From Candidatus Woesearchaeota archaeon (GTDB lineage: Archaea > Nanobdellota > Nanobdellia > Woesearchaeales > UBA10216), in contig NZCN01000014.1 of assembly GCA_002688315.1 (NCBI GenBank), positions 1 through 44,773 of the forward strand: DNA of 44,773 nucleotides, written 5' to 3'. The notes under the pieces were generated by a model. That model saw nothing but the letters and a program-made list of their open reading frames with translations, ran no database searches and was not told where the DNA came from. Below, piece after piece: positions 16,838-44,416 of the stretch. Both the position numbers and the translations under genes were made by a program. The first letter of the stretch is position 1. Each line of letters opens with the position of its first letter.

Positions 16838-16954
16838 GCCCTCGTAGCTTAGTAGGTAAAGCGTGCGGCTGTTATCCTCACTGTCGTTCGGGACTTCCCA
16901 AACGCAGTTTGGCAAGTAACCGCAAGATCGGCAGTTCGAGTCTGCCCGGGGGCG
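16838..16954 (+). tRNA. tRNA-Asn(GTT) with anticodon-loop intron
   Basis: Acceptor GCCCTCG/CGGGGGC (one T-G), discriminator G. D-arm GCTTAGTAGGTAAAGC. Anticodon stem TGCGG/CCGCA and spliced loop CTGTTAA, anticodon GTT. T-arm GGCAG TTCGAGT CTGCC, uninterrupted. The intron is 44 nt at about 37/38 (16875-16918). Spliced length is 73 nt. A TATA box (GTATATATA, 16805-16813) lies about 25-30 bases upstream. Confidence 0.95.
16875..16918 (+). other. 44-nt intron of tRNA-Asn (37/38)
   Basis: It contains a perfect hairpin CCAAAC-GCA-GTTTGG (about 16899-16913). Unlike the other introns here I cannot draw a full 4-bp central helix: loop bases CTGT face intron bases CAAG, giving only two pairs. Boundaries may shift by one or two bases because TA/AA repeats around them. 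Confidence 0.75.
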
Positions 16955-21243: not shown

Positions 21244-21361
21244 GAAAAAAGGATAAAAAGGTAGTTTAAAAATGTTGCCAGATGCAAACATATTTAAGCG
21301 TTTTATCAACCCAAATTAGTATGCTCCCTTAGTCTAGCCTGGATAAGATGCGACCTTGCGG

Positions 21362-21373
21362 TTGTTAGCAGAA
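21362..21373 (+). other. 12-nt BHB intron 1 of tRNA-Arg(GCG), position 37/38
   Basis: Intron TTGTTAGCAGAA. Loop bases TTGC (32-35) pair with intron GCAG (one T-G). The 5' bulge is GGT, cut GG|T, and the 3' bulge is AAA, cut AA|A. Only six bases remain as the apical loop, with no inner helix. Confidence 0.85.
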
Positions 21374-21394
21374 AGGTTGTGACCGGGGTTCGAA

Positions 21395-21406
21395 TCTATG
21401 CGAAAG
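21395..21406 (+). other. 12-nt BHB intron 2 of tRNA-Arg(GCG), T-loop 59/60
   Basis: Intron TCTATGCGAAAG. Outer helix GGGG/CCCC, central helix TTCG/CGAA, 3' bulge AGT cut AG|T, 5' side AA|T opening directly into the apical loop. Splicing gives TTCGAAT. Confidence 0.87.
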
Positions 21407-21408
21407 TC

Positions 21409-21469
21409 CCCGAGGGAGCATTAGCGACCTCGGGTCCCGAACGAAAGTGAGGACACCCGAGGGAGCATT
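21409..21469 (+). repeat. Partial duplication of the tRNA-Arg(GCG) 3' end
   Basis: CCCGAGGGAGCATT occurs at 21409-21422 (tRNA T-stem and acceptor 3' strand) and again at 21456-21469. The intron's CGAAAGT is also repeated upstream of the second copy (about 21442-21448). The second copy lies in a strong hairpin, CTCGGGT (21429-21435) with ACCCGAG (21455-21461). It ends exactly where the next gene's stop codon begins. It could be a degenerate extra 3' half, a recombination scar, or a tRNA terminator structure. Confidence 0.6.
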
Positions 21470-42363: not shown

Positions 42364-42966
42364 ATGAAGATATTAGCAGCAGGTTGCTTGCATAGCAACG
42401 CTGATTTGATAGAAAAGCTTGCGCAGCAGGCACAGGATGAAAACGTTGATTTGGTAGTGTTAGCTGGCGATCTCACTTTTGGAGAGGAAAGCACAGACAA
42501 CATTATAGGTCCTTTTGTAAAACGAAACAAAAAAGTTGCTTTGATTCCAGGCAATCACGAAACAACTTCTACTGCTGACTTTCTAGCTCAAAAATATGAT
42601 GTTACAAATCTTCATGGGTACGGCTTAACTCATGGAGAAATTGGATTGTTTGGATGCGGCGGTGCAAACGTTGGATTGTTCCAGCTTTCTGAAGACGAAA
42701 TTTTTAATCATCTAAAAAAATCGCACAAATACGTGAAAGACGCTAAGAAAAGAATAATGGTTACTCATGTTCACCCTGCTGAATCAAGGATGGAGCAATT
42801 CTCAGAGTTTGTAAAAGGCAGCACAGGTGTTACAAGAGCAATAGAAGCTCTCAAGCCAGACATATTGCTTTGCAGCCACGTGCACGAAGCATCAGGCCTT
42901 GAAGAAACTGTCGGAGACACCAAAGTCATTAACGTTGCCAAAACTGGTAAGATAATTGAGATCTAA
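42364..42966 (+). CDS. Calcineurin-like metallophosphoesterase
   Basis: 200 aa. Two-metal phosphoesterase fold: motif 1 MKILAAGCLHSN (the usual D-x-H is C-L-H, so the first Asp is replaced), motif 2 LVVLAGDLTFGE, motif 3 IPGNHETTS, MVTHVHPAE, and final LLCSHVHEASGL. Related to the YfcE/DR1281/MJ0912 type that acts on nucleotide or phosphoprotein substrates. The Asp to Cys change in motif 1 is notable and may alter metal choice. Convergent with rtcB, 4-base overlap of stops. Confidence 0.85.
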   Translation: MKILAAGCLHSNADLIEKLAQQAQDENVDLVVLAGDLTFGEESTDNIIGPFVKRNKKVALIPGNHETTSTADFLAQKYDVTNLHGYGLTHGEIGLFGCGGANVGLFQLSEDEIFNHLKKSHKYVKDAKKRIMVTHVHPAESRMEQFSEFVKGSTGVTRAIEALKPDILLCSHVHEASGLEETVGDTKVINVAKTGKIIEI

Positions 42967-44416
42967 CCTTTAACAACTCCCAGCGGCACAAGTCGTGCAA
43001 CAGCTTTTCCCAGTCCAACATCGTTGGAAACCTTTGCTACTTCGTTTATGTCTTTGTATGCTGGTGCTGCTTCTTCTGCTATGCCTTTCCAGCTGGCTGC
43101 TTTTACAAACATGTTTTTCTTCTCCATATCAGCAGAAACTTTTTCTCCTCTAAAGCTTCGGATAGCTTCTTTTCTGCCCATTGCTCTTCCAGCTCCGTGT
43201 GCTGTGCTGGAAAAGCTGATTTCTTCTGATTTATCAGTGCCAACAAGAACATAACTTGCAGTCGACATTGTTCCTGGAATAAACACAGGCTGGCCAACTC
43301 CTTTATACATTTCATTAACTTCTTCCCGTCCAGGACCAAAAGAACGTGTAGCGCCTTTTCTATGCACACACACTTCCATAGATTCACCATCAACTTTGTG
43401 CTTCTCTACTTTTGCAATGTTATGGCAAACATCGTAAACTTGTTTCATTCCTTCATCTGTTCCCATTACTTTTTTAAAACTTGCGCGCATCCAGTGAACT
43501 ATCATTTGCCTGTTTGCAAAAGCATAATTCATTCCAGCACACATTGCTTTGAAATATTTTTGTCCAAGTTCTGAACTAAAAGGAGCATTTACAAGCTCTC
43601 TATCAGGCAAGTGCTCAAATCCATATTTCTTTTCCATTTCTTTGATATAATCAGAAGCCACCTGATGGCCAAAGCCTCGGCTGCCGCAATGCACCATCAC
43701 AGTTACTTGCCCTGGTTTTTCTATGCCAAACGCAGCAGCAGTTTTTTCATCATAAATTTCATCAACCTTTTGCACTTCAAGAAAATGATTTCCAGAGCCT
43801 AACGTGCCTAGTTGCGGCCTCCCTCTAGCAATCGCGCTTTCGGAAACAAAGCTTGGCTCTGCTTGCTTTAAGTAACCATATTCTTCTGTTGCATCCAAAT
43901 CACTCTTAATCCCATAACCATTTTCCAAGCTCCACTTAGAGCCTTTTGCAAGCAAGTCAAGCATTTCATCTTTTGAAAGCTTTGTCTGCCCACCACGCCC
44001 AACACCAGAAGGAACTTGGTTAAAAAGTTCATTCAAAAGCTCTTTTATCTTAGGCATTACTTCTTCTGCGGTCCAGTTAGTACGTATTAATCGCACTCCG
44101 CAATTTATGTCGTATCCTATACCTCCAGGACTAATTACACCAGTTTCCGTATCAACTGCCGCAACGCCACCAATTGGAAATCCGTCTAAGGGATTGCTAA
44201 CTCTCGCTAGGCAATCGAGCCTTCGTGGGCATCGGGCATGACATACGAAAACTTCTGAATACCTTCCAAGTGAGCTACATTAGCTGCTTGCATCAAAGTT
44301 CTGTCCTGCTTTATCTTCTGTATCAACTTTGCCGACGCAAAAATCTTTGCAGGAACTTTCATGCCGCCACTTTTAGGTATTTCCCATTCGTTTTCTGATA
44401 TTTTCTTTAGTTCCAT
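42963..44416 (-). CDS. rtcB: RtcB RNA-splicing ligase, interrupted by a 32-nt BHB intron
   Basis: RtcB seals 2',3'-cyclic phosphate and 5'-OH RNA ends with GTP and Mn and is the archaeal tRNA exon ligase. Exon 1 (44416-44218) codes for 66 residues plus one base, ending YVMPDAHEG. The unspliced frame then hits TAG. Exon 2 (44185-42963) resumes in another frame. Removing 44186-44217 joins them as codon T|AC (Tyr67): HEGYGFPIGG, the family's conserved motif. The spliced product is 473 aa, with GYDINCGVR (Cys95, Asp92), MVHCGSRGFGHQ and AHGAGRAMGRKEA for the guanylate-binding His. Archease lies 45 bases upstream in the same operon. Confidence 0.93.
44186..44217 (-). other. 32-nt BHB intron in rtcB pre-mRNA
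   Basis: Central helix: exon AAGG (last bases of the His-Glu-Gly codons) with intron CCTT, exactly 4 bp. 5' bulge CTC, cut CT|C. 3' bulge AGA, cut AG|A. The intron body folds as GATTGC/GCAATC, one bulged C, then TAGC/GTTA closed by a GAGA (GNRA) tetraloop. The outer helix is short (CG/CG). A length of 32 is not a multiple of three, so it must be removed for RtcB to be made. The structure matches tRNA-type introns cut by the splicing endonuclease. Confidence 0.9.

Follow-up and report, generated by a model that had tools for sequence, protein, structure and literature searches.

The tRNA-Arg(GCG) gene analysed here would be a functional gene interrupted by two 12-nt introns of the BHB type, cut out by the splicing endonuclease EndA and with the exons joined by the ligase RtcB; the pre-mRNA of rtcB itself would be spliced likewise. 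We give this reading a probability of roughly 85%. The DNA comes from a Candidatus Woesearchaeota archaeon, and the window, meaning the whole stretch that was analysed, is 44,773 nucleotides long. The tRNA, both introns, their conserved positions and single genes for EndA and RtcB can be read directly from the DNA. The tRNA locus consists of the following features.

21323 to 21420, plus strand: precursor of tRNA-Arg(GCG), 98 nt with the discriminator A included; ARAGORN calls Arg(gcg) with both introns excised.
21362 to 21373, plus strand: intron 1, TTGTTAGCAGAA, 12 nt, at position 37/38 in the anticodon loop.
21356 to 21359 and 21368 to 21371, plus strand: central helix of intron 1, TTGC/GCAG, with bulges GG^T and AA^A.
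21395 to 21406, plus strand: intron 2, TCTATGCGAAAG, 12 nt, at position 59/60 in the T loop.
21389 to 21392 and 21401 to 21404, plus strand: central helix of intron 2, TTCG/CGAA, with bulges AA^T and AG^T.

Both inserts lie at the boundary between the sixth and seventh nucleotides of a 7-nt hairpin loop. In each arm, loop nucleotides 1-4 pair with the intron to form a 4-bp helix (one pair of the intron 1 helix being U.G), and 3 nt separate this helix from the 3' strand of the stem, so that both introns show the 4-bp central helix and 3-nt bulges of the BHB motif in a fixed register. When each arm was folded alone with RNAfold, the minimum had the outer stem and the central helix, closed by an 8-nt loop, with a bulge of 3 nt on the 3' side. 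An inner helix is absent from both introns and the 5' bulge is merged into the 8-nt loop, which makes the splice motif a bulge-helix-loop. The sequence-only reading had described full 4-bp central helices with no inner helix, and both the register check and the RNAfold minima bear this description out.

A 4-bp helix in a fixed register would arise by chance with a frequency of 1/32 per intron, and excision provides a far stronger test of the reality of both introns. ARAGORN, with introns allowed, found 0 genes in the unspliced precursor. With only the 59/60 insert removed it reported a tRNA with an unreadable anticodon, and with both inserts removed it reported tRNA-Arg(gcg), a canonical cloverleaf in which all stems and invariant positions are intact. 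The earlier proposal of a 98-nt tRNA-Arg(GCG) precursor with two introns at these coordinates is thereby upheld, and the Arg(gcg) call depends on excising both. Neither plain ARAGORN nor Rfam, run on the window, detected the locus, and the Rfam tRNA model still did not detect the double-intron tRNA-Arg at E<=10.

Published archaeal tRNA introns range from 11 to 129 nt, with medians of 12-25 nt; position 59/60 is among the known intron sites, and tRNAs with two and three introns have been described (PMC4090602). The suggestion that 12 nt is close to the smallest possible BHB intron must be toned down in view of this range, and the size is not unusual within the genome either, where at least seven other tRNAs carry introns of 12-16 nt. 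The locus resembles the archaeal tRNA introns of Marck and Grosjean and of Sugahara et al. (reviewed in PMC4090602) in its BHB-derived splice sites, its 37/38 and 59/60 positions, the presence of several introns in one tRNA, and lengths from 11 nt. Taken alone, tRNA-Arg(GCG) is known in kind, one more disrupted archaeal tRNA. It differs from known multi-intron tRNAs in that both of its introns are loop-type, with no inner helix, and those tRNAs come mainly from archaea with alpha2beta2 enzymes, whereas an alpha-only enzyme is predicted here. The same 12-nt insert size recurs in putative 12-bp introns reported for an archaeal virus (Peng et al., as cited in PMC2738675); as far as that citation describes them, the viral inserts are unproven and lie in protein genes, whereas the present inserts lie in tRNA loops. 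We found no published account of tRNA introns in Woesearchaeota in a search mostly outside subscription journals.

Orthologues of tRNA-Arg(GCG) in two congeneric species keep both intron positions. The introns are 11 nt and about 48 nt long in G002, and about 59 nt and about 107 nt long in G001. The splice letters (TTGCGG^...GCAGAA^A and TTCGAA^...CGAAAG^T) are unchanged, while the interiors differ strongly in both length and sequence (11 to about 107 nt). Fixed borders with freely varying interiors are, as judged from these comparisons, the pattern expected of spliced introns. In the G001 orthologue (locus L010, contig G001:C2) the introns are enlarged by palindromic hairpins (TCAGAA...TTCTGA), and hairpins of the same kind occur elsewhere in G001 and in G002.

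Short introns are widespread both in this genome and in its relatives. Introns of 12-16 nt at position 37/38 were found in the tRNAs Thr(GGT), Ala(CGC), Thr(TGT), Gly(CCC), Arg(TCT), Leu(TAA) and Ser(TGA) of this genome. Three further tRNAs of the genome, as read from the sequence, have T-loop introns of 13-16 nt; these introns measure 13 nt in a tRNA with anticodon TTT, 14 nt in Ser(TGA) and 16 nt in a neighbour of the TTT tRNA. In the tandem tRNA pair at G000:C3:12400-12760 (locus L202 of this genome), both members have a T-loop intron, of 16 nt (TTCA/TGAA) and 13 nt (TTCG/CGAA). The same two-intron layout, with introns of 13 and 14 nt, appears in tRNA-Gly(TCC) of G022.

T-loop introns were searched with a strict pattern, GGTTCGAA..CGAAAGTCC (TTCGAA^...CGAAAG^T), and with the backward pattern as control. 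Among 288 genomes of the order, 67 contain the strict pattern versus 7 for the control. Excision turned 27 of 32 distinct matches in the fetched loci into a tRNA recognized by ARAGORN (0/32 before excision), and control excisions of the same length shifted by 6-9 nt gave a tRNA in 22 of 128 cases. In a wider sample, the pattern was present in 36 of 148 genomes of the order versus 3 of 88 from other orders of the class. The tRNA-Arg(GCG) finding is thus one instance of an order-wide habit. When mixed precursors were aligned with MAFFT, the T-loop introns came out misplaced, and no covariance model was built from that alignment.

Could the locus be a decaying pseudogene, with random inserts and no tRNA-Arg(GCG) made from it? 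The failure of standard tRNA models to recognize it and the repeat element inserted directly behind it would fit such decay. However, the stems and invariant positions are intact on excision, two congeneric species have retained both introns and their splice letters despite wholly changed interiors, and no second tRNA-Arg(GCG) turned up in the genome by a tRNA-model search, albeit with a model that overlooks intron-rich tRNAs. We consider decay very improbable, and we judge equally improbable the idea that only the anticodon-loop intron is spliced while the T-loop insert is retained and an enlarged T loop used. Mitochondrial T arms with odd loops exist as a matter of general knowledge, but it is difficult to see why a retained insert would have a full BHB-type register, recur across the order at exactly 59/60, in dozens of tRNAs that belong to many isotypes, and give back TTCGAAT when removed. 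Even less credible is a role for the downstream hairpin, together with a second tRNA 3' end (21456-21469), as an alternative third exon providing another T arm. That idea draws on a 14-nt direct repeat of the T-stem/acceptor end, CCCGAGGGAGCATT, at 21409-21422 and 21456-21469; we rejected it, since the loop of the second T arm has no invariant TTC, and the element also occurs apart from tRNA genes and is missing downstream of the orthologue in G002.

The simplest explanation is that a functional tRNA-Arg(GCG) is formed by excision of both introns. In the pathway that we propose, the stem of each arm would act as the outer helix, and loop nucleotides 1-4 would pair with four intron nucleotides to form the 4-bp helix. 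EndA would cut past the second nucleotide of each 3-nt bulge, for four cuts in all, and RtcB would then join the exons in two ligations. The sequence-only reading was right to anticipate RtcB-type ligation for a two-intron precursor; an rtcB gene is located in the window. We infer the transcription of tRNA-Arg(GCG), its cutting and the order of intron removal. The enzyme, predicted to be an alpha4 EndA, would have to accept bulge-helix-loop substrates without the CSL or ASL loops credited for this elsewhere.

EndA is encoded by a single gene with both the PF02778 and PF01974 domains, 175 aa from its Met. The gene is split by a contig end, and the two contigs, which share 99 identical bp, were joined to give the 175 aa. 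An endonuclease profile match is present in 56 of 59 relatives (one copy in nearly all), including all 39 of the 39 near-complete ones. The best PDB match is the catalytic chain of the Nanoarchaeum equitans enzyme (3iey), with the M. jannaschii alpha4 enzyme third. In an alignment with A. pernix alpha, a 10-residue insertion (vekprgadfe), which holds the K-P-R of the Crenarchaea-specific loop as described in PMC12397907, is absent from the woesearchaeal EndA. A broad-specificity endonuclease, alpha2beta2 or epsilon2, had been expected from the tRNA; the gene search gave a single short alpha-type gene with no CSL instead. EndA, at 175 aa, is far from the three-unit epsilon2 (ARMAN) protein, with 395 aa in the solved chain 4fz2, and it departs from alpha2beta2 enzymes with a CSL in having neither the CSL insertion nor a detected beta gene, though a strongly diverged one could escape. 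One short gene that encodes both an N- and a C-terminal endonuclease domain is what alpha4 enzymes have, and the likeness to the Methanocaldococcus jannaschii type extends to one gene of about 170-180 aa, both domains and no CSL. Most likely, to go by one gene of alpha size, EndA is an alpha4 homotetramer.

The published rules would not have predicted such an enzyme here. According to reviews, alpha4 and alpha2 enzymes accept strictly BHB substrates at 37/38 (PMC4090602), bulge-helix-loop motifs are cut only by homodimeric and heterotetrameric forms and not by homotetrameric enzymes (PMC8707768), and CSL or ASL loops accompany diversified introns (PMC12397907). The woesearchaeal lineage, unlike the strict alpha4 enzymes, is rich in bulge-helix-loop introns, and the introns predicted from sequence, which in both the genome and the order include loop-type ones and ones at 59/60, do not follow the alpha4 habit of BHB at 37/38 only. 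Because this substrate limit is a described habit and not a defining trait, we file EndA as 'alpha4-like by gene content'. On the predicted introns, the genome is at odds with the published enzyme-intron rules, and either the alpha4 enzyme is relaxed or a partner was missed. Such a partner might be a second subunit that has diverged strongly, or a protein that a host cell supplies. An unrecognised second subunit, making an alpha2beta2 enzyme as in N. equitans, would render the specificity not unusual, and it gains some appeal from the closest solved structure, the N. equitans catalytic chain, which works with a partner (3iey_B). No such second chain was detected here, however: in a genome that is 99.7% complete, PF01974 and PF02778 each give one gene, which for PF02778 holds up to E<=10, and nearly all relatives have just one gene. 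We regard a second subunit as unlikely, although it deserves more weight than the alternatives above, and we favour with good confidence an alpha4 enzyme that is relaxed without CSL or ASL loops. Efficient cutting of bulge-helix-loop substrates by an alpha4 EndA is a prediction, not a known activity. The earlier remark that the locus tests how relaxed the endonuclease of this lineage is holds, and more sharply so given a lone alpha-type EndA.

The most surprising by-product of the analysis is a putative intron in the ligase gene.

42963 to 44416, minus strand: rtcB, tRNA-splicing ligase, 473 aa when spliced; the spliced protein matches PF01139 over 1-426/426 with 554.9 bits.
44186 to 44217, minus strand: putative BHB intron of 32 nt within the pre-mRNA of rtcB, CGATTGCCTAGCGAGAGTTAGCAATCCCTTAG; frame-restoring, at the same site in 8 species.

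One rtcB locus was found in the genome; it is the only rtcB of the window and lies near the window end. The reading frame is broken between MPDAHEG and FPIGG, and removal of 32 nt gives HEGYGFPIGG; among the excisions of 20-44 nt that were tried, only the 32-nt one restores DAHEGYGFP. The insert forms a regular BHB, with AAGG/CCTT as central helix, CT^C and AG^A as bulges, and GATTGC/GCAATC as inner helix. Inserts of 29-32 nt interrupt one and the same Tyr codon, in identical phase, in 8 species from 3 genera of one family (this genome, G001, G010, G011, G012, G014, G017 and G018). In 8 of 8, the length is not a multiple of three, DAHEGYGFPI is restored and the 4-bp helix is kept, and in G010 the helix is altered on both strands (AGGG/CCCT). 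Covariation over the structure is 0.357 versus 0.180 +- 0.030 for shuffled columns, a value as high being reached in 0/500 shuffles; owing to the kinship of the species, this control does not amount to a probability. The intron is absent and the Tyr codon intact in G002, G003, G005, G008, G009, G013 and G015, one non-carrier being congeneric. A search of 353 genomes of the order with the intron pattern gave 8 with a match, every one from this family (control, 0).

The insert thus has the properties by which archaeal pre-mRNA BHB introns of the cbf5 kind are recognized: it restores the frame, contains the BHB motif and lies at a conserved site. As with the crenarchaeal cbf5 intron (PMC2738675), a BHB intron in a conserved protein gene shows gain and loss among relatives, and splicing would restore the frame. 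The rtcB case is unlike cbf5 in that the host gene encodes the ligase of its own pathway, in its regular BHB motif, and in an endonuclease that is not hetero-oligomeric as far as visible. The mRNA substrates known from the literature consulted are cbf5 (PMC2738675) and one Haloferax mRNA (PMC7714728), and in a search mostly outside subscription journals we found no published BHB intron in rtcB. Most likely, the EndA/RtcB machinery also removes the rtcB intron. Since archaeal exon joining is attributed to RtcB, synthesis of RtcB would then need RtcB already present; this self-dependence may serve control or may be merely tolerated. Among other relatives, the rtcB frames of G009:C13, G015:C15 and G044:C87 run to 900-1000 aa with a gap near profile position about 50, which suggests an intein in these RtcB proteins. 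The two of these genes that were checked (G009 and G015) lack the BHB intron.

In its enzyme context the tRNA is a predicted variant that would contradict a stated rule. It makes testable whether endonuclease architecture limits which introns an archaeon can carry: if a lone alpha-type EndA cuts the 98-mer at four sites, the accepted correlation of enzyme type with intron type fails. More broadly, we think it rather probable that Woesearchaeales have an expanded intron system, in which an alpha-only, loop-less EndA cuts 11-16-nt bulge-helix-loop introns in anticodon and T loops, with one family also splicing the RtcB mRNA. If so, the rule tying non-canonical introns to CSL/ASL loops or hetero-oligomeric enzymes would be broken, and RtcB would form a self-dependent loop, as a ligase joining its own message. 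The rtcB intron, if spliced, would be the first BHB intron in an archaeal splicing ligase gene, as far as the searched literature shows. On the practical side, such genomes are prone to misannotation of their tRNA sets and of rtcB; the standard tRNA model gives 23 tRNAs above its cut-off in this genome.

The hairpin that lies directly 3' of tRNA-Arg(GCG) has the loops AGC-N-GCGA and TCCCGAAC-N-GTGAGGA. Direct copies of the tRNA 3' end border it on both sides, and its stem is complementary to that end. Among 19 genomes of the family, 4 contain its motif, with 13 copies in total. All 3 copies of this genome are at tRNA genes, namely tRNA-Arg(GCG), tRNA-Pro (G000:C8:23561-23640) and the intron of tRNA-Asn. 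Elsewhere in the family, the element forms a tandem array 3' of a tRNA-Arg (G004:C85:7970-8090), and a further site lies behind a tRNA gene on G001:C20. The element is built as R - loop - R' - loop - R, R being derived from the target, which points to a small hairpin that is mobile. In tRNA-Asn(GTT) (16838-16954), the 44-nt anticodon intron (16875-16918) holds the element reversed, beginning at the exact 5' splice site. The central helix of this intron is poor (2/4 pairs), and the intron may be a recent element insertion turned intron. This case suggests that element insertions are able to become introns, and we offer it as a lead rather than a result. A search of Rfam at E<=1 with the downstream hairpin gave only a sub-threshold match to a box C/D sRNA, with 15.6 bits versus a gathering score of 50. 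Another odd gene of this genome (G000:C15:9843-9929, locus L034) is a bacterial-looking tRNA with a long variable arm and anticodon TAT, called Ile by ARAGORN and odd for either isotype.
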